NCBI GenBank assembly: GCA_022822665.1 | Contig: JAJEAR010000027.1 | Span: 1 to 64,000 of the forward strand | Direction: 5' to 3' | DNA length: 64,000 nucleotides | Origin: Alphaproteobacteria bacterium | GTDB taxonomy: Bacteria; Pseudomonadota; Alphaproteobacteria; Thalassobaculales; Thalassobaculaceae | Shown: in pieces, positions 4,351 to 22,530 of the stretch | How the letters are laid out: each line of letters opens with the position of its first letter | Position numbering within the stretch: the stretch's first letter is position 1 | The notes under the pieces: model-generated | Database searches by the model: none | The model's input: only the letters and a program-made list of their open reading frames with translations | What the model was told of the DNA's origin: nothing | Program-made: the position numbers and the translations under genes

Positions 4351-5166
4351 TCAGGCGCCGATCGGGTCCGCCGGGTCTTCGAAGCCGCCGCCGGCAGCCA
4401 GGGGAACGCCGGTCAGTTCCGGAAGCGGCCTGCGCGTCGGCGACAGCGTGTGGCCGATGCGGCGTTCGGTCCGCGCATAGCGCCGGTAGAGAGCGGGACG
4501 GAGTTCGGCCGCCGTCCGCAGGTCCCCGGGGGACGAGAAAATGCAGAACGAGCAGCTGCACCGCGACAGATGGCGATAGATCCAGTGCGGCGACTGTCCG
4601 GCGAGGCGAATGACGCGGAACACGTCCTCGGTGGAAAGGTCGAAGATCGGCAGCCAGTCGAAAACTTCGCGGCCGGCGACGCTCATGCGCTCGTTGCGCC
4701 GCCAGGGGACGCGCCCGGCGCGGGCGGCGCTCTCGTCGCGCCGGATGCCGAGGCAGTTCAGCAGGCGCCCGTCGAAGCGCGGATGGATCTTCAGATACCG
4801 TCGCAGCTCGCGCTCGATCGGTCCGCGCTTATGCTCCGCGGTACACCATCTTTGCCGGACCCCGGGGAACATGCCGCGTTCCTCGACGCGGTCGAGCAGC
4901 GACTTGCCGGATGCGACGGGCGCCAATACCAGCGGCACGCCGGCCGGCAGCGTCGCCTCGATATGCTCGACCGTCCCGGGCCATTCCACCTCGCCGAGCG
5001 GGGCGTGCACCGCCACGATCTGGTCACGGGGGACGATCCGGGACAGCAGGATCGTCATGGCCTGGCTGTCCTTGCCGCCGCTGGTATTGATGGCGACGAG
5101 AGCGCCGGCGCGGATTGTCTCCCGGCACGCGGGCGGCAGGTGGATGTCGGCAGGTTCGGCGGGCAT
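4351..5166 (-). CDS. PAPS-reductase-family PP-loop protein
   Basis: A 271-residue protein with the PP-loop ATP-pyrophosphatase motif INTSGGKDSQA near residues 24-34, followed by features of the phosphoadenosine phosphosulfate reductase superfamily (RQRWCTAEHKRGPI). A cysteine cluster, RCSCSFCIF, lies toward the C-terminus and could hold an Fe-S centre. This family includes true APS/PAPS reductases, but also DndC-type DNA phosphorothioation proteins and IbrA-like phage or island proteins. No cys-operon gene is nearby, so a nucleic-acid or sulfur-transfer role is as likely as assimilatory sulfate reduction (inference). The start at 5166 begins MPAEPADIH; the upstream in-frame extension is arginine-rich and unlike the family. 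Confidence 0.85.
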   Translation of the reverse strand: MPAEPADIHLPPACRETIRAGALVAINTSGGKDSQAMTILLSRIVPRDQIVAVHAPLGEVEWPGTVEHIEATLPAGVPLVLAPVASGKSLLDRVEERGMFPGVRQRWCTAEHKRGPIERELRRYLKIHPRFDGRLLNCLGIRRDESAARAGRVPWRRNERMSVAGREVFDWLPIFDLSTEDVFRVIRLAGQSPHWIYRHLSRCSCSFCIFSSPGDLRTAAELRPALYRRYARTERRIGHTLSPTRRPLPELTGVPLAAGGGFEDPADPIGA

Positions 5167-5475
5167 GGATCGGGCTCCCGGCTGGCGGCGCGGAAGACCG
5201 CTCCGGGGTCCCCCGCTTCGCCCGGAAGACGCTGGCCTCTGCCTCGCTCCGGCGCGCACCCGTCCGGCGGGCAACGCCGCGTGGACGGCGTTCCAGGAGG
5301 AGCCTCACCGCGCGCCGGTCGGGGAGCCGCGAGCCGTTGTCGCTCGATCTGACGCCGGTGGAACAGCGGCGACGGAATCGCCGGGCGCATGCATTTGTGG
5401 TAGTCGATGCGGAACCGGGCGATGCGCCATCAGGGGAAGGCGGAAGAGCGCAGCGTCAGTGCGGGAGGTGAGCAC
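5167..5475. promoter_or_regulatory. Divergent intergenic region between the PP-loop gene and the HU gene
   Basis: 309 bases separate two divergently transcribed genes, so promoters for both should lie here. Open frames exist in several phases but none has a family-like sequence or ribosome site. I cannot point to a confident -35/-10 pair. The only clear element is the GGGAGGTG ribosome site just before 5476. Confidence 0.4.
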
Positions 5476-5763
5476 ATGAACAAGATGGAGATGGCCGACC
5501 GTTTGGCTGCCCGCATGGGGCTGAGCAAAGGCGCTGCGAGGGATGCCGTGGACGGCGTATTCGCCATAATCGGCGAGGCGCTTGCCGATGGCGAGGATGT
5601 CCGGCTGCCGGGCTTTGGAACCTTCGCCACCAGGAGCCGGCCGGCCCGTACCGGACGCAACCCGAGGACCGGTGAGGCCGTTTCGATACCGGCGACCACG
5701 TCGCCAACGTTCAAGGCGGGGAGGACGCTCAAGGACGCCGTAAATGCGGGATCGGGGTCGTGA
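5476..5763 (+). CDS. HU/IHF-family DNA-binding protein
   Basis: A 95-residue histone-like protein. The N-terminal helical dimerisation part (MNKMEMADRLAARMGLS) is followed by the beta-arm signature GEDVRLPGFGTFATRSR, and then GRNPRTGE, the minor-groove-contacting arm with its conserved proline. HU/IHF proteins bend DNA and assist recombination, replication and integration (family knowledge). A GGAGG ribosome site sits eight bases before 5476, which decides the start over an upstream in-frame ATG. Its place among accessory genes suggests an island-borne copy that helps an integrase or transcription (inference). Confidence 0.93.
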   Translation: MNKMEMADRLAARMGLSKGAARDAVDGVFAIIGEALADGEDVRLPGFGTFATRSRPARTGRNPRTGEAVSIPATTSPTFKAGRTLKDAVNAGSGS

Positions 5764-6237
5764 CGGTGCGACGGGAAAGGAGCGCGGCCGGAGGCGACGC
5801 AAACGGCCTGGATATTGAATCGGGGCGATTTCTATACGGTGACGGTCTCTTTCCGAGCCTCGAGGCCGCCGTCGGAGAGACCCAAGGCTTCTGCCAGGTT
5901 GGGGGCTACGCCGCCGGCGCGGCGCATGGTGCTTCGCGTATGAGGCAAGCAGATCTTGCAAGAGGCTGACATGGTTGTTGGTAAAGAGGGAAACGCCGAT
6001 GACTTGGGTGCCATATCTGTGCCCTCATGGTCGGATAAGGGGAAGGCCCCTCACGCGATACGTTCGTCGCGCGAAGACAGAGCGGCGTCGACGCAGCGCA
6101 ACGCGAAGGGGAGGATGGAGGACTGAAAGGCCGGTTGGAGCAGGTTCCTGAAGACCGTGGAGGCGTTGCTGGATGGCCGCGCTCTGGAGATCGAATCCAT
6201 CATGGGGTATGTCTCGGAGAGGACGGACCGACAGCCT
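5764..6237. other. Intergenic stretch before the five-gene operon, no convincing gene
   Basis: About 470 bases without a gene I can defend. Short frames exist on both strands (for example minus 5832-6014 and plus 5760-5969) but match nothing known to me. Base composition is high-GC like the left flank until about 6240, then drops sharply, so the left boundary of the inserted AT-richer segment is probably near here. The operon promoter is expected in this stretch, unless transcription reads through from the HU gene. Confidence 0.4.
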
Positions 6238-8205
6238 ATGAAACAGGGAATGGCGTCGGCTGCCTTTGAATTGAAGGGACTAGAGGTGCCATTACGTTAC
6301 AAAAGTGAATTGTTGGCGCTCGATACGGCGTATAGCGCAGCGATGAGGATTGAAATTGACGAACTTATCAAGATCGTTCACAAGCAAAGCTTCGGCCCGC
6401 TAATTACCATAGGCTCAGGAGGTTCATTTTCCTCCGCTACATTCGGGGCCGCCATACATGAGCGGGTCACACAGGAACTAGCCCGCGCAGTAACACCCCT
6501 CGAGTTTTTGGATGCTTCTGACATTAACGCATCAGTGATGTGCTTTAGTGCCAGTGGGCGAAACAGGGATATTACCTACGCTCTCACATCTGCGGCAAGA
6601 AGAGAGTGTGGACCGGTGAGCGCATTCGTGATGGATCGTCGCACCCCGCTCCACGCTGTTGCCCGGAAGTACACCTATTGTCAAATAGCTGAGTGCTGCG
6701 ACGCTTCTTTTCGCGACGGGTTCTTGGCAGTCGCTACTCTTCTAGCGACTTCAATTGTGATGACACGCGCCTACGCCGCTATTTCTAACGAACATCATGG
6801 CCTTCCCACTAATTTGTCCGATCTGGAACGGGAAACACTTCGGGGCGAGCGGTACACGGACATTCCAGAGAAGGCCAAGACGGCTCTCTTGCATGAAACA
6901 GCGTCCCTCTTGGTTAGTCCACTGTTTAAGGCAACCGCGATTGATCTAGAATCACGGTTCGTTGAAGCAGCGTTGGGTAACATCCACGTGGCCGATTTGC
7001 GCAACTTCGGCCATGGAAGACATCACTGGATCGCCAAACGCGGAAACAATACCGGAATTGTAGTTCTTGCAAGCGATCGGAACCGGTCGCTAGCCAACAG
7101 AACTACACGATTGTTACCTCCGACTAGTGACGTTTGCAGAATTGATTTGCACGGAAACATTGCGGCTCAAGCAATATCTGCTTTGGTTGTAGGACTGTAC
7201 ATTAGTTGTGGAGCTGGCGAGATTCGAGGCATTGATCCTGGAAAACCCGGAGTGCCGCAATTCGGCCGCAAGCTATATCATCTGAGCCCGGGAAGGCGGC
7301 CGACATCAGAACTGGAACTAGACAAGCGAGCAGCGATTCGACGCAAGTGCTATCGCGACAGATCAATCGATCACCAATCAGCGTTACAGGCAGGATATGT
7401 TGAAGCTGTAGGAAGGCTGGCGACTACCAGTTTTGGCGCGATTGTCTTCGATTACGACGGAACGCTTTGTGGAGAAGAAGATAGGTTTAGGAGTATGCCG
7501 AAAAATGTTGCGGAAGGTTTAGAGAAGTTGAATGAAGCCGGAGTGGCTATAGGGATTGCCACAGGCCGTGGAAGCTCTGCCGGAAAGGCCATGAGAGAAT
7601 CGCTGCCATCCCAACTGTGGAGCAGGATCGTGATTGGGTATTACAATGGAGCGGTGATAACCAGCTTAGAAGATGATCGTGACGAGTTGGTCCAAGATGA
7701 TGCTCCGGAACGATTGATCCACGCCTTACAAAGAGACGAAATCCTCGGTGGCGCGGAGATACGTTCAAATGCATTGCAGGTATCCTTGCGTCTTGAGTAC
7801 AGCGATTCGCTAATGGATATGTATGAACGGACACATATAGTATTGAGCGACCAGCAAATAGAAGCAAAGGTCCATGCCTCAGGTCATTCAATTGATGTTT
7901 TGTTAGGCCGGGAATCAAAATGCTCGGTTGTGGATCATATAAAGATCCATAAAAGGGCTAATGGCATACTCAGAGTGGGCGATAAGGGACGCTGGCCGGG
8001 AAACGATGCAGACTTACTGAAGGATAAATTCGGGTTGAGCGTCGACGAGGTCAGCGAGGATCCGGATACGTGCTGGAACATGGCGCCAGCCGGAGTACGG
8101 GGGGTGCAGGCAACACTCCATTACCTGAACAGACTGGAGCGGCATGGTGACGGAGTGAAACTAGTATTACCCGCATATGAAGGATTGAGCTTCAATGAAG
8201 CGTGA
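6238..8205 (+). CDS. SIS-domain + HAD-phosphatase fusion protein (operon gene 1)
   Basis: About 655 residues with two enzyme-like modules. The N-terminal half is a SIS (sugar isomerase) fold: loop GSGGSF at residues 59-64 and a second phosphosugar loop in FSASGRNRD. The C-terminal ~270 residues are a HAD hydrolase of the Cof/sucrose-phosphatase type: nucleophile motif FDYDGT with D405 and D407, then IATGRG, and a late acidic motif RVGDKGRWPGNDAD. SIS domains bind or isomerise phosphosugars, and HAD enzymes dephosphorylate them (family knowledge). The start is uncertain: GTG 6157 and ATG 6202 are in frame, but ATG 6238 coincides with the onset of AT-rich sequence. The 3' end overlaps gene 2 by 11 nt. 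No membrane segments. It probably handles a sugar phosphate linked to the downstream PRTase and kinase (inference). Confidence 0.88.
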   Translation: MKQGMASAAFELKGLEVPLRYKSELLALDTAYSAAMRIEIDELIKIVHKQSFGPLITIGSGGSFSSATFGAAIHERVTQELARAVTPLEFLDASDINASVMCFSASGRNRDITYALTSAARRECGPVSAFVMDRRTPLHAVARKYTYCQIAECCDASFRDGFLAVATLLATSIVMTRAYAAISNEHHGLPTNLSDLERETLRGERYTDIPEKAKTALLHETASLLVSPLFKATAIDLESRFVEAALGNIHVADLRNFGHGRHHWIAKRGNNTGIVVLASDRNRSLANRTTRLLPPTSDVCRIDLHGNIAAQAISALVVGLYISCGAGEIRGIDPGKPGVPQFGRKLYHLSPGRRPTSELELDKRAAIRRKCYRDRSIDHQSALQAGYVEAVGRLATTSFGAIVFDYDGTLCGEEDRFRSMPKNVAEGLEKLNEAGVAIGIATGRGSSAGKAMRESLPSQLWSRIVIGYYNGAVITSLEDDRDELVQDDAPERLIHALQRDEILGGAEIRSNALQVSLRLEYSDSLMDMYERTHIVLSDQQIEAKVHASGHSIDVLLGRESKCSVVDHIKIHKRANGILRVGDKGRWPGNDADLLKDKFGLSVDEVSEDPDTCWNMAPAGVRGVQATLHYLNRLERHGDGVKLVLPAYEGLSFNEA

Positions 8206-9304
8206 TTTGGCGGAAAAGCTACTGAGCCACTACCTGAATTGGGGGCCGGCGAAGAAAGCGGAAGAACGACGATTGCTGGAGGCGTTGGCGGCGTACAAAT
8301 ATGACGAGTACCAACAGTTCAAGCCAGGCAGGAGGTTTGTTGAGAGCTTGGCTTTGTGGTTGAGGCAATTCAAGTCACTGACGGAAAGGGAAACCGCGTA
8401 CGACTTTGTGAAGGGTCGGCTGATATTTGTATCGGAGGCGGAAATGGTTCACTTGGTACAGTTGGCGTTCCCTACGATCATAAGGCCGCATTTGATGAAG
8501 TTAGTGGCCGAAGAGAATGGCATTGCGCCATATCGAGTCAAGGCCATCTGTGAGTCTCAAGAGTTCCGGCACTTGCTCAGACGAACGCTGTTTCTGGGCC
8601 TCAGCGATGGAGCGCGCACAGACCAGCTGCGGCGGGCAAATCCACGCACTTTGTCTAACGAGCAGATTTGGCACGCGTACGATGTATCGGAGGCTAAAGT
8701 ATCGGATCTTCGAAGCGAACTAAGGAAAGACCTAGGCTCTCAGATCAGCGAGGAAGAATGCTCTTTTAGCACTGTCGTGCTATTGGACGACTTCACAGCG
8801 AGCGGAACGAGTTATATCCGGAAGGACGACTGCACAAGTAAATGGAGTGGAAAGATCCCGAAGGTGCTGGAGAGATTGGAGGCAACCGAAAATTTGGGAA
8901 GTCTGGTAGCACGAAACAATTTGAAAGTCATCGTTTTGATCTACGTGGCATCCGCGCAGGCGGTGGGGCACATACAGGAAATGATTAGGGAGGTGCCGTT
9001 TTCTATGGGTGAGATAGACTTTTTCGTACTTTACGAAATTGGTGAGGACGTCCAACTACGTTCGCCAGGCGACGACGGGATATTGTCAGTAGCGAGTGAT
9101 TCGCACTATTATGATAGTGCAGTGGATGATAAGCACGCCGCTGTCGGAGGGACGACGTATCAGATGGGGTACGCGAACTGCCGGTTGCCGGTGGTTCTTA
9201 GTCACAATACGCCGAACAACTCTATATATTTGCTTTGGGCGGAGGAAGAATCAAGAATAAATGGTCTATTTCCTAGAGTTAGCCGACATAGGGAATATGA
9301 GTGA
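8195..9304 (+). CDS. Phosphoribosyltransferase-like protein (operon gene 2)
   Basis: A 369-residue protein with the PRPP-binding signature of type I phosphoribosyltransferases: VVLLDDFTASGTSYI, with the acidic pair D198-D199 and the TASGTS phosphate loop. The ~180-residue N-terminal part is helical and charged. It fits the group described as conflict-associated PRTases (PRTase-CE) and named phosphoribosyltransferase-like in automated annotation; that naming is from memory. Such enzymes use PRPP and a base or another acceptor. The start at 8195 lies 11 nt inside gene 1, and its stop is overlapped by gene 3 by one base, so translation is coupled. The acceptor cannot be read from sequence. Confidence 0.85.
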   Translation: MKRDLAEKLLSHYLNWGPAKKAEERRLLEALAAYKYDEYQQFKPGRRFVESLALWLRQFKSLTERETAYDFVKGRLIFVSEAEMVHLVQLAFPTIIRPHLMKLVAEENGIAPYRVKAICESQEFRHLLRRTLFLGLSDGARTDQLRRANPRTLSNEQIWHAYDVSEAKVSDLRSELRKDLGSQISEEECSFSTVVLLDDFTASGTSYIRKDDCTSKWSGKIPKVLERLEATENLGSLVARNNLKVIVLIYVASAQAVGHIQEMIREVPFSMGEIDFFVLYEIGEDVQLRSPGDDGILSVASDSHYYDSAVDDKHAAVGGTTYQMGYANCRLPVVLSHNTPNNSIYLLWAEEESRINGLFPRVSRHREYE

Positions 9305-11202
9305 TGCGCAATCCTTTCCGGCTTAGAGCAGCCCAACGGGCGGTGAGCGATGACGATTTCGTTCGGCTATTTGGATCCGGCGCTTTGGACCTCCTTGACG
9401 ACGTGGGCGATCCTTGGCGTGGAGTAGTATTTTTGCGGAGTGCGCCCGGAGGTGGGAAGACTTCGGTATTGCGGCTCCTGACCCCCAGGCCAATGAGAGT
9501 GGCTGCTGCACTGCGTGATGATGAGTGGTGTAGGCCGACATATGAGGCTCTTCGGAAGCATGGCGCCATGGGTGAAGACGGCCCCGGGGTGCTGGGGGTC
9601 TTTGTTGGGTTCACCAATGAATATCGTGATTTAGAGGAAGTGGACCGGGGCGGAAGTATGTTTCGAGCATTGTTGAACGCCCGCATTGTTATTGCCACTG
9701 TCAGGGCACTGTTGGACAGAAGCGACAGAGCGTACCCGAGCGACTTGGATACAGTGGATACGGCGTGGCTTCCAGATTCGGATAGCACCATTCCCAATAG
9801 TGCGTCTGGCAAAGAGCTGTTTGAGTGGGCGTCTGGTATTGAAAGAGGGTTCTACGAAGAGCTTGATTCGCTTCGAGACGTCGAGCATGAGCGTATAGGA
9901 CATACGCGTTTGGACGCCCTAAAATGGTTCGCTAATGCCACATTGCGTGACGCGCATGGGGCAGTAGAGTTGAAACGGGTTCTGCTTTTGGATGATTTGC
10001 AATTTCTATCCGACGGTCAGCGACGGACGTTGACCGACACGGTAGTACAAGCGCGGGAGAATTGTGGGGTTTGGATTGCTGAACGAATGGAGGCGTTGAG
10101 TCACCAAGAACTCCTGAGTGAAGGAGCGTTAGAGGCGCGAGATTACCAGGGCGTAATCCAGCTGGAGAATAAGTGGTCGCGAAGACTGCCAGCTTATACT
10201 CGGTTCGTTGGACAAATCGCTGATTTACGAGCTAGGAGGGCGGATGGATTCAGCGATCGGGAGCTGTTTCCTTTAATAGCGGAATCAGATGACGAGGCGA
10301 GGTGGCGGAGTAGATTTCAAGCAGAAGAAAAGAATATCAGGAATCGTATTGAAGACAGAGTGACGGGGAATGAGCGGTACAGGGATTGGCTAATAGGGAC
10401 AGAGCAAGGTAGGGGGTCAGCTTTCGAAAGGGCCAAGCGGTGGAGGGAGACGGAAATACTCGTGGAGCGCGACTTAGCAAATAGGCAGGGAGCGTTTGAT
10501 TTTGATGTTTTGGGCCAGGATGACTACGAGAACCGGACGAGCGGTTCAATTGAACAGGCGGCCGAACTGTTCTTGAGGCGCGAACTGGAAGCGCCGTATT
10601 ATTTTGGGAAGGAGACTCTAGCGGCGGTTTCTTCAACCAATGTTGATCAGTATGTAGATGTGGCTGGAGATTTGTTTGAGGAGATATCAGCATCTATTGC
10701 TGGACCTCGGAGCAGGCCGCCGTCACTGTCCGCGGAGAGGCAGGATGCACTTATTCGCGCTGCGGCAGATCGCAGATGGTCCGAGCTGCCAAGGAGGCTC
10801 CCTCACGGGTATGAGGCACGCAAGCTGCTGGATGCTGTATCTGCATTTTGCCAGACGGAGACCTACAGGCCAACGGCTCCCTACGCACCGGGGGTAACGG
10901 GTTTTGCGGTGACGATGCGGGAACGCGAGCGGCTGATCAGCGACGAGTTCGAAGGACAGCCCGAAATGTTAATGTTGCGCAATGTGTTATCAACGCTTTT
11001 GGCGCACAATCTCTTGACGCCAAGATTGGATCACAGGAACAAGGGAAGAAACTATTTAGTGTTTTACTTGAACCGCTTGGTTTGTGTGCGATTTCATCTG
11101 CCATTAAGGTACGGTGGTTGGAGAGCGAAGTCGTTGGATGAACTATGCAAATGGTTGACCGTATCTCCTAGGCCAAGTAGGGAGGTGCGTCGTGTCCATT
11201 GA
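9304..11202 (+). CDS. ORC/CDC6-like P-loop ATPase (operon gene 3)
   Basis: A 632-residue P-loop ATPase. The N-terminus begins with NPFRLRAAQRAVSDDDFV. Walker A is SAPGGGKTSVL with K52, and Walker B is VLLLDDLQFL with D230-D231 (Asp-Asp rather than Asp-Glu). A long C-terminal region follows that may end in a winged-helix-like unit near PRLDHRNKGRNYLVFYL. This pattern suits the ORC-CDC6 family AAA ATPases of prokaryotic conflict systems (assignment from memory). The family probably switches or senses in an ATP-dependent way. The start ATG at 9304 overlaps the gene 2 stop (TGATG); GTG 9301 is an alternative. The gene overlaps gene 4 by 11 nt. Confidence 0.82.
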   Translation: MRNPFRLRAAQRAVSDDDFVRLFGSGALDLLDDVGDPWRGVVFLRSAPGGGKTSVLRLLTPRPMRVAAALRDDEWCRPTYEALRKHGAMGEDGPGVLGVFVGFTNEYRDLEEVDRGGSMFRALLNARIVIATVRALLDRSDRAYPSDLDTVDTAWLPDSDSTIPNSASGKELFEWASGIERGFYEELDSLRDVEHERIGHTRLDALKWFANATLRDAHGAVELKRVLLLDDLQFLSDGQRRTLTDTVVQARENCGVWIAERMEALSHQELLSEGALEARDYQGVIQLENKWSRRLPAYTRFVGQIADLRARRADGFSDRELFPLIAESDDEARWRSRFQAEEKNIRNRIEDRVTGNERYRDWLIGTEQGRGSAFERAKRWRETEILVERDLANRQGAFDFDVLGQDDYENRTSGSIEQAAELFLRRELEAPYYFGKETLAAVSSTNVDQYVDVAGDLFEEISASIAGPRSRPPSLSAERQDALIRAAADRRWSELPRRLPHGYEARKLLDAVSAFCQTETYRPTAPYAPGVTGFAVTMRERERLISDEFEGQPEMLMLRNVLSTLLAHNLLTPRLDHRNKGRNYLVFYLNRLVCVRFHLPLRYGGWRAKSLDELCKWLTVSPRPSREVRRVH

Positions 11203-12331
11203 GCCTGGGGTAATGAGGTGGGATCCCTACGTACTTGCTCGTGGGACAGATTTCGATGGATTCTGGAGGGATCAACTTCAGCGTAGTAGGCGTGATGTAT
11301 TAATGGTCGTAGGTCGAGGTTTTGACGTTCGTGCTTTGGATGTTTCCGAGCGACTGCTTGGGATAGGAGGACATGGGCGAAGAGATGCGTGGCTAATGGA
11401 TTTCGATAACGGGCAGGTGGATAGTGAGCAAAGGATCGAAATGACAAGAGACAATTTAGAAGGCTATGAGAGACTGTTTGGCGACAGAGTAGTTAACACG
11501 CTGGAAATTGCTTTAGGAAATGCGCAACGCCCCACCGCAACGTCGAGAAACACTAAAAGGGCCTTTGCGAACGCAAATTCCTTCTTATGCTACGACGATA
11601 TTGTTTTGGACATTAGTGCTGTTCCGAGGATGGTGGCGCTGACGGCTTTGGCGGTGTTAATTGCGCGGCTGGACGATGTCTTGGAAAACAATGGCAAGAA
11701 CATTAATCTGCATGTGACAACTGCTGAGAGTGTGACATCCGATCGCAGTACGGTAAGCGGATCATTGAGCGACGTTGTGACCACAATTGTTGGATTTTCT
11801 GGTAGCAAGAATGCTCAAAGCGATGAGTTCATGCCGAGAGTGTGGTTTCCTGTGCTAGGGGAACACCAGGAAGCGAGACTATTGAAGATAAGGGACGACC
11901 TGATGCCGGACGAAATTTGTCCAGTCCTGCCATTCCCGTCTCGGGAACCTAGAAGAGGCGACGAAATAATCGCAAGTTATCAGCAGACACTATTCGACGA
12001 TTTTCAGATCGAGCCGCGCAATATTTTGCATGCATCTGAATTCAATCCATTCGAAGCTTACAAGCAGATTTTTTGGGCAATCGATCGGTATCGAGATGCG
12101 CTGGCCGACCTTGGGGGGTGCAAGGCCTATGTATCACCACTATCGTCTAAGCTTCTGTCGGTGGGAGCGTTGTTAGCGTGTTACGAACACAAGACGCGAG
12201 GGAGTGCCAATAGAAAGTTGGATGTGGGAATGCCTTATGTGGAGTCATTGTCCTATGGAGACGTTAGCCAGAGCAGAGACGACCCACGCGAACTGTATTC
12301 GATGTGGATAAGGGGAGGATGGGAGACATGA
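11192..12331 (+). CDS. Unrecognised protein of the five-gene operon (gene 4)
   Basis: A 379-residue soluble protein that I do not recognise. It starts with GTG at 11192, inside gene 3, behind a GGGAGGTG ribosome site. Visible features are an alternating hydrophobic strand-like run near residues 35-45 (DVLMVVGRGFDVRALD), an acidic DISAVPRM segment, FSG and PFPSREPRRGDE motifs in the middle, and a glycine/serine turn SPLSSKLLSVGALLA near the C-terminus. The repeated strand-loop-helix rhythm suggests a Rossmann-like fold and possible ligand binding (inference, weak). It ends in an ATGA overlap with gene 5. Candidate roles are sensor or effector, since genes 1, 2 and 5 look metabolic and gene 3 is the ATPase. 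Confidence 0.8.
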   Translation: MSIEPGVMRWDPYVLARGTDFDGFWRDQLQRSRRDVLMVVGRGFDVRALDVSERLLGIGGHGRRDAWLMDFDNGQVDSEQRIEMTRDNLEGYERLFGDRVVNTLEIALGNAQRPTATSRNTKRAFANANSFLCYDDIVLDISAVPRMVALTALAVLIARLDDVLENNGKNINLHVTTAESVTSDRSTVSGSLSDVVTTIVGFSGSKNAQSDEFMPRVWFPVLGEHQEARLLKIRDDLMPDEICPVLPFPSREPRRGDEIIASYQQTLFDDFQIEPRNILHASEFNPFEAYKQIFWAIDRYRDALADLGGCKAYVSPLSSKLLSVGALLACYEHKTRGSANRKLDVGMPYVESLSYGDVSQSRDDPRELYSMWIRGGWET

Positions 12332-13419
12332 AACGCATTGGCGTACAAGTTCGCCAAACAGAAGAGGGACCCGTGTGCATCGGCTGTGGGTTTGTTGCGC
12401 TGGACATTGTCGAGGGAGAAAGGGGGCATTTTGCGGCAGCGGGCGGTTCATGTGGGAACGTGATGGCAATTCTCAGCTGGCTGGGCTGGAATTCACAGCT
12501 TATCGCACGGTTAGGCAATGACGAGGCGGGGGACCTCGTTGCGGTTGAGCTCGAGGCGGAAGGTGTCGACGTAACTCGGCTAGTGCGGCAAAGTTCTGTG
12601 ACTACACCAATTGTTATTCAAAGGTTTGTCACGAGCAAAGAGGGGGGACGAGTCCATCGATTTTCGATTTCGTGCCCGGAGTGCGGCGCATGGCTGCCGA
12701 GATACAGGCCGATAACGCTTAAGCAAATTGAAACAGTGGTATTGACAGACGATGCGCCGAAGGCCTTTTACTTTGATCGCGTAACCCCGGCCGCACTGAG
12801 GGTGAGTAAGTGGGCAAGGGCAAAGGGGTCTCTGATCGTATTCGAGCCGTCATCTATCGGCGACGAAGGGATGTTTCGCAGGGCGGTGGAGGACTGCGAC
12901 GTATTGAAGTATTCTAAGGAGCGGCTTGGACATGTTCCGGATCTGGCGGCTAGCGGTAAGCCGAAGCTGATTGTGGAAACGGCGGGAGCGGAAGGTTTAG
13001 CACTACGCTGGAAAGGAAAGTGGAGTCACTTACCGGCATTTGAGGTAGAGAAGATACGGGATGCGGCTGGATCAGGCGATTGGTGTACGGCAGCGCTTAT
13101 TCACAAACTCGGGGGCGTTGGTTGCGTGGGCTTGTCTCGGTTGAAGAGGTCGGACGTAGAAGACGCACTGCGCCTTGGTCAAGGTCTGGCGGCATTAAAC
13201 TGCATGTTTGAAGGAGCCCGAGGCTTGATGAGCAATAAGGATATTGCTTCCACAAATGTGGGTTTGAAGGTGTTGCAGGAACGATCAAATGTTCCAGACG
13301 AGTGGACGGTACGCAAAGATGGGTATTCCACTGTCCCAGAGAGGGTGTGTGAGTTATGTAAGCCGAAAGAGAGCGGGTCGGGACAAGGTCAAGCAAGGAG
13401 GGTTAGGGGAACGGTATAG
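12328..13419 (+). CDS. PfkB-family carbohydrate/nucleoside kinase with three CxxC motifs (operon gene 5)
   Basis: A 363-residue ribokinase-fold protein. The PfkB N-terminal signature is visible as GGSCGNVMAILSWLG (residues 39-53) followed by RLGNDEAGD. The C-terminal signature is DAAGSGDW at 245-252, keeping the catalytic-base Asp251, with Ser where Ala is usual in GAGD. Unusual for the family are three CxxC pairs, C17/C20, C116/C119 and C341/C344, which could bind zinc. PfkB kinases phosphorylate ribose, nucleosides or sugar phosphates (family knowledge). The start at 12328 follows GGGGAGGATGGGAG and overlaps the gene 4 stop (ATGA). With the PRTase and SIS-HAD proteins it suggests a pathway around a ribosyl compound (inference). 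Confidence 0.87.
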   Translation: MKRIGVQVRQTEEGPVCIGCGFVALDIVEGERGHFAAAGGSCGNVMAILSWLGWNSQLIARLGNDEAGDLVAVELEAEGVDVTRLVRQSSVTTPIVIQRFVTSKEGGRVHRFSISCPECGAWLPRYRPITLKQIETVVLTDDAPKAFYFDRVTPAALRVSKWARAKGSLIVFEPSSIGDEGMFRRAVEDCDVLKYSKERLGHVPDLAASGKPKLIVETAGAEGLALRWKGKWSHLPAFEVEKIRDAAGSGDWCTAALIHKLGGVGCVGLSRLKRSDVEDALRLGQGLAALNCMFEGARGLMSNKDIASTNVGLKVLQERSNVPDEWTVRKDGYSTVPERVCELCKPKESGSGQGQARRVRGTV

Positions 13420-13516
13420 GGTCCGCGAATGGTTTTGTGGGTAGCTAGTAGGTTACGCGGACATCGTGGGTGTTTGGTGGCTTGAGTGAGATACTAAAGA
13501 AAAAAACAGCGTGCGC

Positions 13517-14698
13517 TCACGTAGTCGTCTTGTCAGCATGAGTAACGGGCGACAGGTTCCCGCCGATGCTCCCGGTGATCCGGGCCGCGGCGTTCTGGAT
13601 GGAATCCCGGGCCAAGTGAGCGTACCGCGCCGTGGTCTGCACCTGCGTGTGACCAAGCAGTTTTCCGATCATCGTGAGGCTTTCGCCCAGGGCCAGCGCC
13701 CTCGACGCATAGGAGTGCCTGAGGTCATGAATTCGCACGTCCTCCAGCCCGGCGCGCGTGCGGATGCGGCGCCAGGGGCGCTGGAGATCGGTGAGATGGG
13801 TGCCCGGCACCTTGCCGCGGATGACCCAGGGATTGTCCTCCTCGCGGGGCAGGGCCGCCAGCACGGCACGGGCCTCGGGCCCGAGCGGCACGGCCCGCCC
13901 GCCGGTCTTCGCGTCGGGGAGCTCGATGCAGTCATCCCTGACGTATTCCCAGCGCAGGAACTGGATCTCCGACAGCCGGCAGCCGGTCAGCAGCAACAGG
14001 CGGAAGGCGGCGACCGCGGACGGCATCTCGCTCTCGGCCTCTGCGAGGACCTCGCCCAGCCGCTCGGTCTCCTCGGCCGACAGGAACCGCTCGCGCTTGC
14101 TCTCCTTGTAGCGCTTGACGTGCCGGCAGGGGTTGGACCCGTCGGGCCGCAGGCCCCAGATTTCGGCGAGCGAGAACATCTTGGAGAGGACGCCCAGCGT
14201 CCGGTTCGCCTGGTAGGGCTTGTCGCGCAGGTCGAAGTGCAGCTTGGCGATGTCCTTGCGCTCCACGCCGGCGATCCGCATCCCGCCGATCGCAGGGTCG
14301 ATGAACAGCTCCACCGACCGCCGGTATTCCCCCTGGGTGCTGGGTTTGCAGTGGACGGGGACATACTCCTCGAGGAAGCGCCGGCCGAGATCGGCCATGA
14401 CCGGCTCGGCCTGCTGCTTGGCATCGGCATCGCGCGGATCGATGCCGTTCTTCGCCTGGGCCAGGATCTCCAGCGCTGCGGCCCTCGCCTCATCGGCGGT
14501 GATGCGCCCGTGCAGGCCGAGGGTGAACCAGCGCAGCTTGCCGCGGACGCGGGTCTGGAGGACGTAGTTCTTCCGGCCCGACTTCCGGATGCGGAGGGCG
14601 AAGCCGGTCAGCTCGCCGTCCCAGTAGATCGTATCGGCGCCGTTCGGCTTGATGGCCTCCACGGCGCGCCTGGTGAGCTTGGGAATGCGGTTTGGCAT
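13517..14698 (-). CDS. Tyrosine-recombinase integrase, P4/DUF4102 type (first copy)
   Basis: A 393-residue phage-type integrase. The DUF4102-like N-terminal arm-binding domain (IYWDGELTGFALRIRKSG) is followed by a core SAM-like domain and the catalytic domain: TGCRLSEI (Arg), HDLRHSYASRAL (His-x-x-Arg), LGHTQVQTTARYAHL (His and nucleophile Tyr). All catalytic residues are present, so it should be active. The start at 14698 (MPNRIPKL) is preferred over an upstream in-frame extension. It converges with the five-gene operon and lies next to a tRNA-3'-end-like sequence, as expected of an integrative element. It resembles the integrase at 21340-22530. Confidence 0.95.
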   Translation of the reverse strand: MPNRIPKLTRRAVEAIKPNGADTIYWDGELTGFALRIRKSGRKNYVLQTRVRGKLRWFTLGLHGRITADEARAAALEILAQAKNGIDPRDADAKQQAEPVMADLGRRFLEEYVPVHCKPSTQGEYRRSVELFIDPAIGGMRIAGVERKDIAKLHFDLRDKPYQANRTLGVLSKMFSLAEIWGLRPDGSNPCRHVKRYKESKRERFLSAEETERLGEVLAEAESEMPSAVAAFRLLLLTGCRLSEIQFLRWEYVRDDCIELPDAKTGGRAVPLGPEARAVLAALPREEDNPWVIRGKVPGTHLTDLQRPWRRIRTRAGLEDVRIHDLRHSYASRALALGESLTMIGKLLGHTQVQTTARYAHLARDSIQNAAARITGSIGGNLSPVTHADKTTT

Positions 14699-14729
14699 GG
14701 GACTGAATTCTTGACGTCGGAAGGGCAGT

Positions 14730-14762
14730 CTAGCAAGCTGGCCAACTATTGGCAAACACTTT
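14730..14762 (+). repeat. Imperfect direct repeat upstream of integrase 1, copy A
   Basis: Core AACTATTGGCAAACACTTT, 32 bases before the integrase start codon. A near-copy (about 28 of 33 positions, one gap) recurs at 14994-15025. Such repeats may be integrase arm-binding sites, or the remains of a second promoter region from a tandem insertion. Confidence 0.6.
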
Positions 14763-14904
14763 GGATGGTTTCGCAGCGCAGGGGAGGCGGCGCATGCGTC
14801 CGAAACAAATTAGAAGACTCCAATATATCAGCAGGTTATCAACACTCAGTCGTCGTCAGCGCATCTGAGACGCAGTTTGTGGTCACACTCTAAACCTGAA
14901 AGTC

Positions 14905-14932
14905 TCAGGTTCAGGTCCTGCCCCCGCAACCA
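14905..14932 (+). other. tRNA 3'-end-like sequence, putative integrase attachment site
   Basis: The segment folds as a T-arm (TCAGG, loop TTCAGGT, CCTGC, four pairs) followed by an acceptor-like CCCCGCA, A and CCA. I could not build a full cloverleaf upstream, so only the 3' part seems to be present. Integrases of this type usually insert at tRNA 3' ends, and the integrase gene lies just to the left. Which tRNA it derives from is not determined. Confidence 0.45.
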
Positions 14933-14935
14933 ACC

Positions 14936-14971
14936 AAAGCCCTTGAAAACAGCAACGTGTTCGAGGGCTTT
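14936..14971 (+). terminator. Hairpin after the tRNA-like end
   Basis: AAAGCCCTTGAA pairs with TTCGAGGGCTTT (11 of 12 positions, one mismatch) around a ten-base loop. It starts a few bases after the tRNA-like CCA, where a tRNA terminator would sit. No long T-run follows, so termination strength is uncertain. Confidence 0.5.
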
Positions 14972-14993
14972 GTGACGCGGCGAAACGGCCGAT

Positions 14994-15025
14994 CTGGCAA
15001 GCCGACAAACTATTGCAAACACTTT
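14994..15025 (+). repeat. Imperfect direct repeat, copy B
   Basis: Core AAACTATTGCAAACACTTT, matching copy A at 14730-14762 in the same orientation, on the other side of the attachment-like sequence. No integrase gene follows copy B; the next gene is the restriction-type gene on the minus strand. Confidence 0.6.
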
Positions 15026-15144
15026 GCCGTGGACCATGGGCGCGAAGCGGGCACACCTCTCGGGTGGCGGCCTTGAGCGCGGTTTTCTTTGGCCACTTGC
15101 GTTGTGGTGCCCTCGGGTGCCGGTTTCTCCTGGTTTGGCTAGGG

Positions 15145-16236
15145 TCAGGCGTCTCCTTGCGGCTCCCGAGCTTCAGCCGGCCAGCTCGATTGACGCGGCT
15201 CTTCGATGCTTACTCGCAGGGATACGATCCCGAATTGTCGGAAATTAGCTGCTCGATAGCGCGGACGGCTTCGAATATTGCCGATAACGTTCGAGGACCG
15301 TGACATATTGGCTGCCTTCCATGGCACCACCTTACGGCGTCCATTCGAATATAATTCGACAATCCAGGCACACTTCGTTCTGAGCAACTCTTCAAGGAAA
15401 GCGCTTGACGGCGACGGATCTAGTTCGATGGGCAATGGGTCTTGCCTGCATGGTGCCAACTCGCCGTCGTCAAGAGCGACCGAGCGTCTGTCGGAGTTTT
15501 GTCCCCGTGTTGCCGCTGCGTTTCGCGCTGTCCGCGTAGCGGACATTCCACCTGCCCCGGCCGCGTTTCCAGGCATTTTCTCAAGAAAACCTGCGATCGT
15601 TCCCGGATCGGGCCTGTGACCCGATATTTCCTCTACCTTGTCCACAAGTTCTTCACGCAAGAGACTGCTCGGGTCGCCGAGCACCTGTTGCCAGGCATCT
15701 TGCAGAGCGGCGCGCACGCGCCTGTCGCGTTCCTGGCTCTCAAATTCTCGCTTGGCTTCCTCCTGCGCTTTACCATCGACCACGTCACTGCGATTGAGGA
15801 AGCGATAAAGCGCCACCGCCGCATCTTCGGGAAGCTGCTCGCGAAAATTCACACTATAGAAACGACGCTGTTCCCAGCTAGTTCCGGCTGTCGGCAAATA
15901 GAGCCACCAGACGAGGCCGTCCGTGAGCGCGGCCAGCGCCACACCCTCATCGAAGGCGTAACGCAGCAATTGCTCCTGGTGCTCGGTAAGGTCCGCACCT
16001 GCCCGCTTCACTTCGATCAGGACGAGGTTGCGCGCCTGGCTGCGGAGACAATAGTCCACGCGCCCGCCCCGAACCGAGTATTCGCGGGCAACCTGGTCGT
16101 GGTCGAGCGTGTCCCAGTCCAACTTTCCGATGACGGTATTCACCGCGCGCTCGCGCGTGTCCTGCTCGCTGCTCTGGGAGAAGTCGATTTCGGCCAGCCG
16201 CCCAATCAAGGCTTCGAGTTTCGAAAGATCAGTCAT
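15145..16236 (-). CDS. Type I restriction HsdR-N-like / restriction-endonuclease-fold protein
   Basis: A 363-residue protein. Its N-terminal ~170 residues look like the HSDR_N nuclease domain: VNTVIGKLDWDT, EYSVRGGRVDYCL and LVLIEVKRAGADL, giving the D...ExK arrangement of a PD-(D/E)XK active site. The C-terminal ~90 residues form a separate domain (KCAWIVELYSNGRRKVVPWK then NVIGNIRSRP) that I have seen attached to such nucleases. There is no helicase, methylase or specificity gene beside it, so it is not a complete type I system. It may be an orphan defence nuclease brought in with the adjacent element (inference). The start ATG at 16236 is the first of the frame. Confidence 0.82.
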   Translation of the reverse strand: MTDLSKLEALIGRLAEIDFSQSSEQDTRERAVNTVIGKLDWDTLDHDQVAREYSVRGGRVDYCLRSQARNLVLIEVKRAGADLTEHQEQLLRYAFDEGVALAALTDGLVWWLYLPTAGTSWEQRRFYSVNFREQLPEDAAVALYRFLNRSDVVDGKAQEEAKREFESQERDRRVRAALQDAWQQVLGDPSSLLREELVDKVEEISGHRPDPGTIAGFLEKMPGNAAGAGGMSATRTARNAAATRGQNSDRRSVALDDGELAPCRQDPLPIELDPSPSSAFLEELLRTKCAWIVELYSNGRRKVVPWKAANMSRSSNVIGNIRSRPRYRAANFRQFGIVSLRVSIEEPRQSSWPAEAREPQGDA

Positions 16237-16945: not shown

Positions 16946-17926
16946 GCCGCGACGCGGCTCGTTCGTCATCTCTTCCGACATCGCCGGGTGCGGCGGCGCG
17001 GACAGCGTCGCATCGGCGACCGCGCATTGCCCGCCGCACATCTCCCGGCGCTCTCATCGGCGCTTCGCGCCTCGCCGGCGTCGGCTTCGCCGTTCGCCGC
17101 CATCGCCGGGGCCGCGTGCGATCACGACGGCGCTTCCGTCGCCGCGCCTTGCGGCCCGCTTCGCACGCCTGCCCGCGCGGCTGACGCCGCGGTAACGGGT
17201 CGCCGTCATCGGTTGAGCTCGCGGAACATGTGAGACCGCGAACCATCGCGTTACACACCGACGCGTTCGTCATGCCCGGCTGCGCTGCGGTAACGTGTGC
17301 GCGACGCTCGGCGGCTCGGTGTAGCATGTGCGGCGATGCCGGTGCGCCGAGGCAACGGACCATCCAGCGCACCGGCTCCGTGTGCCATGTGTGGAGATCG
17401 CCGTCGGCTGCTTGCGGAGCGTGCCCCGTTTTGTTACCTCTGCAACCGCACGACACTGCGGAACGCGCCCGATGATCACGGGCGAATCACGCAGCCGGAT
17501 CCAAACCTGCAAGCCTGCACGACGATCACCACGCTTCAAATCGAAACTGACCGGAGAAATCTGGAACAACCACAATAATCATGCACGGCATAATCCGGAA
17601 CAACAGCTACGAGACAGTTCGAGATCCAACAGCTCCCTGCGAACCGCATGGTCGCAGCACGCAGAGCGATTTGTTCACGGAGAACCCAAGCCTCAGCCTC
17701 TTCCCAAAGAGGTCTCGATCAATCCACACGACGCGGCAACGACGCCGCAAATTGCTCAGTAAAACACGTCCGCCGGTGTCTCAATGTCGTTGACAGATTC
17801 CGAGGTGCGCCGACTACCGCACGGTCCTCAGCTTTCCGTTGGCGGCCGACAGTCATCCAAATCCCTGCAATTCAGGCGGCTTACCCCGAGGTCAGGCCGG
17901 CATCAACGGGTGAGCAGATACACATC
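16946..17926. other. Very GC-rich then mixed intergenic stretch, no supportable gene
   Basis: About 980 bases. The first 300 are strongly GC-rich with many short CG-rich palindromic words, and every long frame there is arginine/alanine-rich, as expected by chance. Frames over 17240-17760 have no recognisable motif. The sequence becomes AT-richer from about 17500 toward the acyltransferase gene, whose promoter should lie near its end. Confidence 0.4.
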
Positions 17927-21339: not shown

Positions 21340-22530
21340 TCAAGCCGGCGCGGCCCCGTCGCGCTCGTCGTCATCGAGAATGTCCGCCCCGATACTGCCT
21401 GCCACTCTGGCCGAGGACGCCTTGATCGAGTCGCGCGCAAGGTGCGCGTAGCGCGCGGTCGTCTCGATCTTGTTGTGACCAAGTAGTTTGCCGATCATCG
21501 ACAGCGACTCGCCGAGCGCCAGGGCCCGGGAGGCAAAGGAGTGTCTCAAGTCATGGATGCGCACACCCTCAAGGTCCGCCTCTTCGCGCACCCGTTCCCA
21601 GTAGTGATTGAGGTCGGCAAGATGCTTGCCCGGGTTCCTGCCAGGGATGACCCAGGGACTACCCTCGATGCGCGGCAGTGCTGCCAGTACCCGCGCCGCC
21701 GCGGGTGAGAGCGGCACAAGCCGCGCGCCGGATTTGGAATCGGGCAACCGAATCTCACCCACCGCGAGGTCCACGTTCTTCCATTCAAGCGCCACGATCT
21801 CGTTGCGTCGGCAGCCGGTCAGCATCAGTAGCCGGAGCGCCGCCGCCGGATGGACAGGAAGCCGGCTTTCGGCCTCCATTTCGTTCAACACCTGGCCGAG
21901 GCGGCGGAACTCTTCGTCGGTCAGGAACCGCTCGCGCTTGGTCTCCCGGTACTTGCGTACGAACTTGCACGGATTGGAGCCCGTGCGCAGTTCCCATTCC
22001 TCGGCGAGGTTGAACATCTTGCCGGCAACCTCCAGCACACGGTTCGCCTGGTAGGGCCGGTCGCGCAGCGCATGGTGGAGTTTCGCGACGTGTTCGCGCT
22101 CGACCTTGCCCACTGGCACATGGCCGTAGGCCGGCAGGATGAAGCTATTCACGACGCGGCGGTACATCTTCTGCGTGGACGGCTTGCAGCGGATGTCGAC
22201 ATGCTCCTCGAAATAGCGCACAGCCAATTCCGCCACCGTCACCGCCGAGACGGGCTTCTCGCCCGGCTCCTGCCCGCTCTTCAGCAGCGCAATGGTTTCG
22301 GCTGCCTTCTTGCGCGCCTGGTCGGCGGTCATCACGCCGTAGCGACCGAGCGTGATGCGCTTCGACTTGCCCTGCGTCCGGGTCTGGACGACGAACACCT
22401 TCGAGCCCGACGGATAGACCCTGACCCCGAAGCCGGGGATCTTGTCATCCCAGAACACGGCGTCCTTGTCCTCGACGGACAGTGCCTCGACGGTGCGTTT
22501 GGAAATGGTGCGATACTGGAGTTTGGCCAT
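21340..22530 (-). CDS. Tyrosine-recombinase integrase, P4/DUF4102 type (second copy)
   Basis: A 396-residue integrase with the same architecture as the one at 13517-14698: N-terminal DUF4102-like region (VFWDDKIPGFGVRVYPSG), then catalytic motifs TGCRRNEI, HDLRHSFASRAL and LGHNKIETTARYAHL. Arg, His-x-x-Arg, His and Tyr are all present. Shared words with copy 1 (CKPSTQ, PYQANR, KRERFL) show they are paralogues of one subfamily but clearly diverged. The start at 22530 (MAKLQYRTISKRT) is chosen because the upstream in-frame 36 codons carry no homology. It borders the truncated hydantoinase gene, so it probably catalysed that insertion (inference). Confidence 0.95.
   Translation of the reverse strand: MAKLQYRTISKRTVEALSVEDKDAVFWDDKIPGFGVRVYPSGSKVFVVQTRTQGKSKRITLGRYGVMTADQARKKAAETIALLKSGQEPGEKPVSAVTVAELAVRYFEEHVDIRCKPSTQKMYRRVVNSFILPAYGHVPVGKVEREHVAKLHHALRDRPYQANRVLEVAGKMFNLAEEWELRTGSNPCKFVRKYRETKRERFLTDEEFRRLGQVLNEMEAESRLPVHPAAALRLLMLTGCRRNEIVALEWKNVDLAVGEIRLPDSKSGARLVPLSPAAARVLAALPRIEGSPWVIPGRNPGKHLADLNHYWERVREEADLEGVRIHDLRHSFASRALALGESLSMIGKLLGHNKIETTARYAHLARDSIKASSARVAGSIGADILDDDERDGAAPA

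Follow-up and report, generated by a model that had tools for sequence, protein, structure and literature searches.

The best-known role of CARF proteins is to sense Cas10-made cyclic nucleotides, and phosphosugar enzymes of the FrlB, GlmS and NagB-II type occur with PfkB kinases in fructoselysine-type pathways. The locus described here joins proteins of both kinds to a phosphoribosyltransferase (PRTase) and an ORC-CDC6-like ATPase. In 2023 Nicastro reportedly described predicted immune systems that target nucleotides through PRTase-CE, HD-CE and Calcineurin-CE effectors, and PRTase-CE is said to have been predicted there to cleave or consume nucleotides. Two other systems are close to parts of this locus: type III-A retrons carry a PRTase effector together with RT-DNA (PMC12548924), and Clover, built from an HD dNTPase and a nucleotidyltransferase, has an effector on nucleotides that is held by the inhibitory signal of a partner enzyme (PMC12265719). 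The PRTase found here belongs to the retron PRTase family by PADLOC models, but it is accompanied by ORC and CARF proteins, and a scan of the five products and four neighbors found no reverse transcriptase, so the locus was not assigned to type III-A retrons. Clover was set aside as well, its HD dNTPase and nucleotidyltransferase both being missing among the five products; the two systems share no genes, and the inhibitory signal that would make them alike is, on our side, a proposal. Tentatively, and with somewhat less than even confidence, we read the locus as a mobile, abortive-type immune system of two modules in which a sugar-phosphate ligand would serve as the licence that restrains the PRTase.

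The window, a 64,000-nucleotide stretch of alphaproteobacterial DNA, holds a compact operon of ~7.2 kb with all five genes on the forward strand. Gene 1 (S; 6238..8205, with alternative starts at 6157 GTG and 6250 ATG) encodes a double-SIS half of the GlmS fold (~6250-7344) and a HAD-IIB phosphatase half (~7417-8169); gene 2 (P; 8195..9304) a PRTase-CE, the predicted nucleotide-targeting effector; gene 3 (O; 9304..11202, alternative start 9301) an ORC-CDC6-like AAA+ ATPase; gene 4 (C; 11192..12331) a triple-CARF protein of the CARF6 clade, the predicted ligand sensor; and gene 5 (K; 12328..13419, alternative start 12304) a sugar kinase of the PfkB/ribokinase fold. The junction overlaps of 11, 1, 11 and 4 nt given in the original prediction hold with starts at 8195, 9304, 11192 and 12328, and the cassette is, as also claimed there, AT-richer than both flanks (GC 0.519 versus 0.697 on the left, at 1-6 kb, and 0.61-0.64 on the right, at 13-18 kb). 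GC is 0.67 at 23-33 kb of the window, and GC3 reaches 0.88 in the integrase, against 0.50-0.59 in the cassette genes. A second AT-rich stretch of the window lies at 18-20 kb (GC 0.49).

Both border genes named earlier were matched by profiles, and both lie 3' of the cassette on the reverse strand. The tyrosine integrase (13517..14755; PF00589, E 7.3e-19; Arm-DNA-bind_3, E 1e-13) is probably the mobility gene of an island and stands outside the system; the HSDR_N-type protein (15145..16236; PF04313, E 6.7e-6, 26.5 bits versus a cut-off of 25.1) borders the island and is likewise outside the system. There is no transporter within the window cassette and no Rfam match at the gathering threshold in 5300-15200, and a search for attachment-site repeats turned up only those shared by two homologous integrases, plus two short pairs that look like chance.

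The core of the operon belongs to known families. Gene 2 matches PF24390 (E 1.6e-19, 71.2 bits versus a curated cut-off of 27) and the PADLOC model PRTase_III-A (E 2.6e-15); its one PDB match by sequence, to an orotate PRTase, is weak (E 0.045). In its PRPP-type loop with an acidic pair, D198, D199 and G204 are invariant in 34 of 34 sequences. A narrower loop pattern is present in 59 of 79 loci; of the 20 misses, the six displayed read DDFxGTGT. Gene 3 matches PF24389 (E 5.1e-20, 72.1 bits versus a curated cut-off of 27) and, by a strict pattern, keeps Walker A in 76 of 79 loci. The earlier view of the ORC-like ATPase as a likely switch is supported; its PDB matches by sequence are short P-loop segments only. 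The PF24389 search misses divergent members, since a genome that holds all five genes (G190, locus L013) is absent among its matches. This core has probably been described computationally already, reportedly in the 2023 account by Nicastro: both Pfam families are present here, and sister loci carry HD-CE and calcineurin-like effectors. The SIS-HAD and PfkB module is an addition to it. A literature search that did not extend to the main family papers returned nothing on the five-gene set, on PRTase-CE, or on CARF with CDC6 and a methyltransferase.

The motif calls of the original prediction stand for genes 1, 2, 3 and 5, but gene 4, which it had listed as unknown while suggesting a sensor, is a full-length triple-CARF protein. 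It matches the PADLOC family CARF6 (PDLC01910, E 7.9e-110) over residues 8-378 and profile positions 1-347 of 348; the clade name in PADLOC is said to follow Makarova's work of 2020. The AlphaFold model (pLDDT 90.1) has a CARF fold, in line with a predicted ligand sensor. Its best VIA-align match is 6sce, a type III CRISPR nuclease that we take to be Can1 (Z 15.7, rmsd 3.1, 233 residues aligned), with Csm6, Can2, Cdn1, Card1 and Cam1 next at Z 10-12, and the 14 rows after 6sce are all CARF proteins or ring nucleases. These rows were used in place of the top Foldseek rows, which are cation-chloride transporters at a TM of ~0.25 and an rmsd of ~18 and thus meaningless. Three CARF-type motif patterns that we drew up ourselves are found in 78, 70 and 52 of the 79 loci, and a PDB sequence search with gene 4 returned no match. 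In this locus the CARF6 member is coupled to ORC and PRTase proteins and to sugar enzymes.

A search for Cas10 gave no match in the genome of the window. Across hosts, matches at E < 1e-10 occur in 4 of 53 genomes; the family cut-off is passed in 13 of 53, mostly weakly and perhaps by GGDEF cross-matches, as an E. coli control also matches. We therefore rejected both a type III CRISPR accessory system, Cas10 having no match in the same genome, and the idea that the ligand is generally a cyclic oligoadenylate from Cas10. The same scarcity makes a local source of ligand plausible, and some structural matches of gene 4 are CARF relatives solved in complex with cA4 or cA6. The ligand might be an activating second messenger, made by SIS-HAD and PfkB as messengers are made by cyclases in CBASS and by TIRs in Thoeris, that binds the CARF protein and unleashes the PRTase; the two-module evolution described below would fit such a shared diffusible molecule. 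A set of kinase, isomerase and phosphatase with no nucleotidyltransferase or cyclase is, however, unlike the known messenger synthases. In the sister loci, moreover, no SIS-HAD or PfkB of this family was matched, so their product cannot be a general requirement of the CARF6 clade. We consider an activating messenger unlikely, if still deserving of attention.

Gene 1 (Pfam Hydrolase_3, E 2.7e-8; AlphaFold pLDDT 89.7) aligns in VIA-align with the isomerase domains of GFAT/GlmS (Z 29.4), with NagB-II (27.8) and with FrlB (23.7). The motifs GSGG, HGRH, D[YFL]DGT and GND are present in 79 of 79 loci, and E239, H255 and G256 (numbered from 6250) are invariant in 37 of 37. An hhalign alignment with a probability of 16% places the glutamate of the GlmS KLKE motif on E239, and the HG correspondence to GlmS-type enzymes was matched by eye; E239 and H255 are presumably the GlmS-type catalytic Glu and His. 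Judged by its modelled double-SIS fold and these predicted catalytic residues, gene 1 qualifies as a GlmS-type enzyme. It shares the fold of FrlB, GlmS and NagB-II (Z 24-29) and their PfkB partner, but its SIS half is fused to a HAD phosphatase and tied to a defense-type core. Gene 5 matches PF00294 (E 1.2e-16) and keeps the G[SAC]GD motif throughout the 79 loci; its PDB profile matches are fructokinases and ketohexokinases, and its best NCBIfam model, ribose-1-phosphate kinase, falls far under the cut-off. The ribosyl substrate first proposed for SIS, HAD and PfkB is therefore not upheld, the nearest solved SIS and HAD relatives being of hexose-phosphate type.

A genome search with gene 1 found 328 loci, and our counts rest on the best 80. 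Five genes lie on one strand in 69 of these, ten are cut by contig ends, and one (L054) is without P and O, so that 69 of the 70 uncut loci hold all five; L168 duplicates L029 and is not counted in the 80. Because 69 of the best 80 loci share the same five genes, the arrangement is far beyond chance. The conserved five-gene sets that were looked for in other hosts are thus observed, and the uncut loci do not follow the pattern named as speaking against the idea, genes occurring singly or with sugar-utilization genes. The returned loci span about ten phyla, and occurrence is patchy: of 398 genomes in the phylum, 6 have matches. Among 72,556 plasmid records S, P and C each match 18, with 17 in common, and the operon occurs on conjugative plasmids; one plasmid copy, L022, is from Sulfitobacter. 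Neither gene 1 nor gene 2 has a match in 50,697 phage records, four scans of viral contigs matched 2, 4, 1 and 2 loci on four distinct contigs, and we did not retain a phage origin. At the DNA level gene 1 has no match in E. coli genomes.

SIS, HAD and PfkB proteins are common in sugar utilization, and an orphan plasmid SIS-HAD (L146) lies beside a sugar ABC transporter, as might be expected of an ordinary sugar-phosphate metabolic or regulatory operon unrelated to defense. This orphan, however, is without profile positions 217-346, the site of the HGRH motif. The operon stands on its own: in only 1 of 69 loci does another same-strand ORF of at least 100 aa lie within 60 bp (overlapping ORFs uncounted). 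Besides being patchily distributed, it is flanked by defense and mobility genes: the flanks give 102 PADLOC families in 86 proteins versus 4 in 86 controls. An ordinary metabolic role is very improbable, and the earlier description of an integrase-bordered conflict system is supported; the flanks are rich in known defense genes.

The five genes evolve as two modules, SIS-HAD with PfkB and PRTase with ORC and CARF. In pairwise protein distances across 79 loci, S and K correlate at 0.86 and P, O and C at 0.78-0.89, whereas correlations between modules are only 0.39-0.45; pairs are non-independent, and L038, L049 and L092, which count among the 69, are left out for split or overlapping gene calls. 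In L026 and L028 a P-O-C set close to that of the window (53-58% identity) accompanies a distant S-K (26-31%); L026 and L027 each hold two P-O-C sets and a single S-K, although the second set of L026 runs off the fetched stretch and the second PRTase of L027 is called in two pieces. Coupling by a diffusible molecule fits these patterns better than protein contact. The same distances bear on whether PRTase, SIS, HAD and PfkB are consecutive enzymes making an antiviral phosphoribosyl or nucleoside compound, regulated by ORC and CARF. In His and Trp synthesis a PRTase is followed by an Amadori isomerase, all four enzyme domains here keep catalytic-type motifs, and a gene for NADAR, an ADP-ribosyl hydrolase family, adjoins 10 loci. 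PRTase distances nevertheless follow those of ORC and CARF (0.78-0.82), not those of SIS-HAD and PfkB (0.43-0.44), and PRTase-CE also occurs in operons of ORC, CARF6 and a methyltransferase without sugar enzymes, making such a pathway quite unlikely.

Departures from the five-gene set bear on how the ligand might act. In L123 and L173, S, P, O and C are accompanied by a NADAR gene while PfkB has no match, so PfkB is not strictly needed; the L123 genome has no PfkB match of the gene 5 family. L054 retains S and K despite the loss of P and O, and its CARF gene is shortened as well. On plasmids, the orphan CARF is a 21% match, and the orphan P, the only P-bearing record without a SIS-HAD match, ends early (profile 1-327 of 370). 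From the S and K retained in L054 and from the shortened orphan PRTase we suggest, tentatively and on weak evidence, that the ligand may restrain rather than trigger. Retention of S and K in L054 is equally what would be expected if SIS-HAD and PfkB, with NADAR where present, were an antidote that clears or repairs sugar phosphates or base adducts leaked from the PRTase, with no CARF signaling. SIS-HAD and this PRTase co-occur (17 of 18 plasmid records each way), and NADARs act as antitoxins elsewhere, as stated in one source (PMC11125620). PRTase-CE systems without this module (L120, L165) speak against such sanitation, which we regard as quite unlikely as well; they also indicate that SIS-HAD and PfkB are not needed by PRTase-CE as such.

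L120 and L165 belong to 12 sister loci in which the ORC-like ATPase occurs with other effectors (L121 and L126, of the same genus and with the same coordinates, both count; L125 in genome G331, matching only PF24389 positions 6-55, is excluded). Effectors seen on ORC and CARF6 are HD-CE, calcineurin-like, other PRTase-CE and a kinase fusion, and no SIS-HAD or PfkB of this family was matched in the sister loci. A DNA methyltransferase, backed by Pfam or PADLOC, contacts the operon in 6 of the 12; none was seen in contact in the other six, whose neighbors were only partly profile-scanned, so the slot is not universal. By motif, none of the 82 five-gene loci has a same-strand methyltransferase-like ORF in contact (as background, the pattern also fits 2 of 114 control ORFs), and an NPPF-bearing ORF lies ~480 bp away in 2 of the 82. 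We accordingly rejected a restriction-modification or BREX-like system. SIS-HAD and PfkB occupy the slot that a DNA methyltransferase fills in half of the sister loci. If, as a speculative and rather improbable idea has it, the slot means marking self, the mark would be a diffusible metabolite read by CARF, in a manner like restriction-modification, and not a DNA methyl group; an infection that drains or alters the metabolite would free the nucleotide-destroying PRTase.

Returning to the licensed immune system that we favor, PRTase-CE, the ORC-CDC6-like ATPase and the triple-CARF protein would probably assemble into one complex: CARF would sense the ligand, the ATPase would act as the switch, and the PRTase, as effector, would attack nucleotides or PRPP-type compounds. 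SIS-HAD and PfkB would set the level of a small, diffusible ligand of sugar-phosphate type. In healthy cells CARF would read this licence and the effector would be held off; infection would disturb the ligand, release the PRTase and stop growth. Points against this reading are the loci without a PfkB match, the six sister loci with no methyltransferase seen in contact, the PRTase-CE systems that lack SIS-HAD and PfkB, and the third CARF-type pattern, present in only 52 of 79 loci. Complex formation, the enzyme roles, the identity of the ligand and its inhibitory action are inferred.

The sister loci offer a clean comparison: they combine the same ORC and CARF6 core with different effectors, some alongside a DNA methyltransferase and some not. 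Being compact, spread over about ten phyla and carried on conjugative plasmids, the system can be moved to other hosts. Its near-constant sugar-phosphate partners, together with the few hosts that have strong Cas10 matches (4 of 53), suggest that CARF reads a ligand of a different chemistry, or else that an effector attacking nucleotides is licensed metabolically.

The cassette comprises five plus-strand genes encoding a SIS–HAD fusion (6238–8205), a PRTase-CE protein (8195–9304), an ORC-CDC6-like protein (9304–11202), a CARF6 protein (11192–12331) and a PfkB kinase (12328–13419). The open reading frames, overlaps and composition shift described in the original prediction were all recovered on recomputation, with a GC content of 52% for the cassette, ∼70% for the left flank, 61–64% over several kilobases directly to the right and 67% at 23–33 kb. 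The predicted border of a tyrosine integrase (13517–14755) and a restriction-type gene (HSDR_N, 15145–16236) is also present, with both genes downstream of the cassette on the opposite strand. A second tyrosine integrase (21340–22638, minus strand) is homologous to the first (repeats D1 and D2), and this sequence arrangement suggests two islands in tandem. An AT-rich plus-strand ORF at 17648–19999 reads by eye like a membrane acyltransferase and may serve surface modification in the second island. Adjoining the island is a PAPS-reductase-type protein (4351–5274, minus strand) with PADLOC similarity to SspD (E 1.8e-12) and BrxP (E 5.8e-12).

Within the phylum, SIS–HAD matches occur in 6 of 398 genomes and CARF6 (PDLC01910) matches in 6 of 299, one of them weak and located in a sister locus (L014), that is, an ORC-CDC6-like locus without sugar enzymes. 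A gene 1 search of genome contigs from 84,980 species yielded 328 loci. Judged by record title, hosts of the best 80 of these 328 are Alpha-, Gamma- and Deltaproteobacteria, Myxobacteria, Chloroflexi, Cyanobacteria, Acidobacteria, Nitrospirae, Armatimonadetes, Planctomycetes, Bacteroidetes, Poribacteria and Actinobacteria; many are metagenome bins, and some taxa were placed by hand from the genus. The complete five-gene set is present in 69 of the 80, three of which (L038, L049 and L092) have a gene call that is split or overlapping. A contig end truncates a further 10, and one, L054, has lost the PRTase and ORC genes. The latter (L054:9989–16437) is a natural decayed copy that keeps SIS–HAD, part of the CARF gene and PfkB.

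The original prediction had proposed examining the five-gene order in other hosts, and here the set does recur. Across 79 clean-call loci, the window among them and the rest from genomes, genome contigs, viral contigs and plasmids, all five genes share a strand and span a median of 7,207 bp, and 68 have the window's order, SIS–PRTase–ORC–CARF–PfkB. The minority orders are SIS–PfkB–PRTase–ORC–CARF (seven), PRTase–ORC–CARF–SIS–PfkB (three) and PfkB first (one). When 72,556 plasmids were searched with genes 1, 2 and 4, each search gave 18 records, 17 of them common, with matches a few kilobases apart (one of these, CP104991, has fragmented matches to genes 1 and 2); all five genes were found in each of the seven common records inspected. 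The exceptions were a SIS–HAD protein without the HGRH segment that adjoins a sugar transporter (gene 1), a PRTase that ends early (gene 2) and a CARF match at 21% (gene 4). Nine of the 18 gene 1 records were typed as conjugative.

The flanks contain integrases, conjugation genes, transposases and restriction genes, as judged from plasmid annotation or by eye. Counting families rather than proteins, 86 flanking proteins sampled at random from 428 matched 102 PADLOC families at E ≤1e-10, compared with 4 for 86 controls from 17 host-genome stretches; the matches listed include AbiE, Gabija, ShosA, PD-T7-1 and RtcR-type CARF models. Individual neighbours include an NTase-conflict protein (L023:5107–6327; PF20697, E 9e-59) and a nucleoside deoxyribosyltransferase-like and Mrr-like pair (L028:7017–8425).

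The five genes fall into two modules. Pairwise protein distances across the 79 loci, which are non-independent, give Spearman correlations of 0.86 for SIS–HAD with PfkB and 0.78–0.89 within PRTase, ORC and CARF, but only 0.39–0.45 between the modules. In two loci, L026 and L028, the PRTase, ORC and CARF proteins are 53–58% identical to those of the window, whereas SIS–HAD and PfkB are only 26–31% identical. L027 has two PRTase–ORC–CARF sets (the second PRTase called in two pieces) and one SIS–HAD/PfkB pair, and a second PRTase and the beginning of a second ORC gene lie at the end of the L026 stretch. Because the modules recombine and are shared, these comparisons suggest coupling through a small molecule.

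For gene 1, only the HAD part exceeds the Pfam cut-off (Hydrolase_3, E 2.7e-8); it is similar to phosphatases acting on sugar phosphates, such as BT4131 (E 4e-4) and sucrose-phosphatase (E 0.026). The AlphaFold model (pLDDT 89.7) includes a double-SIS half that VIA-align superimposes on GlmS/GFAT isomerase domains (Z 29.4, 314 residues), glucosamine-6-phosphate deaminases (28.7–28.8), NagB-II (27.5–27.8) and FrlB deglycase (23.7). The motifs GSGG, HGRH, D[YFL]DGT and GND are present in 79/79 loci. Invariant E239 aligned with the KLKE glutamate of the host's own GlmS at a low hhalign probability (16%), in a register also supported by an invariant HG pair matched by eye. Gene 5 is a PfkB protein by Pfam, with fructokinases and ketohexokinases as its closest solved relatives by sequence; its top NCBIfam model, ATP-dependent ribose-1-phosphate kinase, scores far under cut-off (65 of 330 bits). 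These kinases frequently have an inserted CPxCG and a CPxC at the C-terminus in their consensus, which may form a zinc site atypical of PfkB proteins; the aligned L011 and L012 proteins lack the insert.

Pfam identifies gene 2 as PRTase-CE (PF24390) and gene 3 as ORC-CDC6-like (PF24389), families that, with HD-CE and Calcineurin-CE, reportedly originate with Nicastro et al. in 2023. Gene 4 gave no Pfam match and is a CARF6 triple-CARF protein in PADLOC (E 7.9e-110). The best VIA-align match of its model (pLDDT 90.1) is 6sce (Can1; Z 15.7), followed by Csm6, Can2, Cdn1, Card1 and Cam1 (Z 10–12). Three CARF-type motif patterns of our own occur in 78, 70 and 52 of the 79 loci. Type III CRISPR cyclic oligoadenylate was ruled out as the general ligand: Cas10 had no match in the window's genome, and among 53 hosts 21 matched at E 1e-3, 13 over the family cut-off and four strongly (E <1e-10). 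An E. coli control also matches the profile, which suggests that weaker matches may be cross-matches to GGDEF domains.

ORC-CDC6-like matches were found in 19 genomes, six with five-gene systems (G384 is without PfkB, and G525 is genome locus L029 again) and 13 others; excluding L125, a short-stretch match only, leaves 12 sister loci. The effector is HD-CE in L014 and L122, a calcineurin-like phosphoesterase in L121, L166, L167 and, by identical layout to L121, L126, and another PRTase-CE in L120 and L165. In the remaining four it is a kinase fusion with the ATPase (L169 and L171 above cut-off, L124 under the kinase cut-off, L170 judged by its size). CARF6 was confirmed in 9/9 separate proteins (L014, L120, L121, L122, L165, L166, L167, L169, L171), and neither SIS–HAD nor PfkB of the cassette's families was found in the 12 loci. 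A DNA methyltransferase overlaps or lies ≤10 bp from the operon in six (L014, L120, L165, L166, L170, L171); in the other six none was found in contact, by a motif pattern for most neighbours. Among 82 five-gene loci, in contrast, no same-strand ORF with a methyltransferase motif is in contact, and two have one ∼480 bp away; any same-strand ORF lies within 60 bp, overlapping ORFs excluded, in one of the 69 complete loci from the best 80 of 328. This difference in contact pattern indicates that the sugar enzymes occupy the place where a methyltransferase often stands.

We favor a licence model, in which a ligand of sugar-phosphate type, maintained by SIS–HAD and PfkB, would be read by the CARF protein to keep the PRTase restrained. 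The main rival is a trigger model, in which the ligand would activate the effector. Licence is favored by the near-obligate linkage of the sugar enzymes to the PRTase core, the shortened orphan PRTase, the locus that kept its sugar enzymes after losing effector and switch, and the occupied methyltransferase slot. A precedent is Clover (PMC12265719), in which an inhibitory nucleotide is the product of a partner enzyme. Counted against licence is that PfkB can be missing from loci of the five-gene type. L123:6338–13081 and L173:6403–13179 read NADAR–SIS–PRTase–ORC–CARF with no PfkB match (NADAR overlaps SIS–HAD by 4 nt in L173), and PfkB of this family was not found genome-wide in the L123 host. 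A NADAR gene adjoins 10 loci, at a distance of up to ∼100 bp in nine of them; in L175 the gap to PfkB is 386 bp. The family occurs in 14 of 53 host genomes, and most hosts are without it.

PRTase effectors have been published for type III retrons (PMC12548924), and a PRTase appears in a legend to validated systems in the DefensePredictor paper (PMC13092281); the relevant passages of these two papers do not name the five-gene set. The L124 kinase fusion resembles the kinase–AAA+–CARF fusions described in the 2014 CARF paper (PMC4012209). The six sister operons that join a methyltransferase to an HD-CE, PRTase-CE, calcineurin-like or kinase effector and an ORC-CDC6-like protein, with CARF6 confirmed in five, are a modular immune family in their own right.
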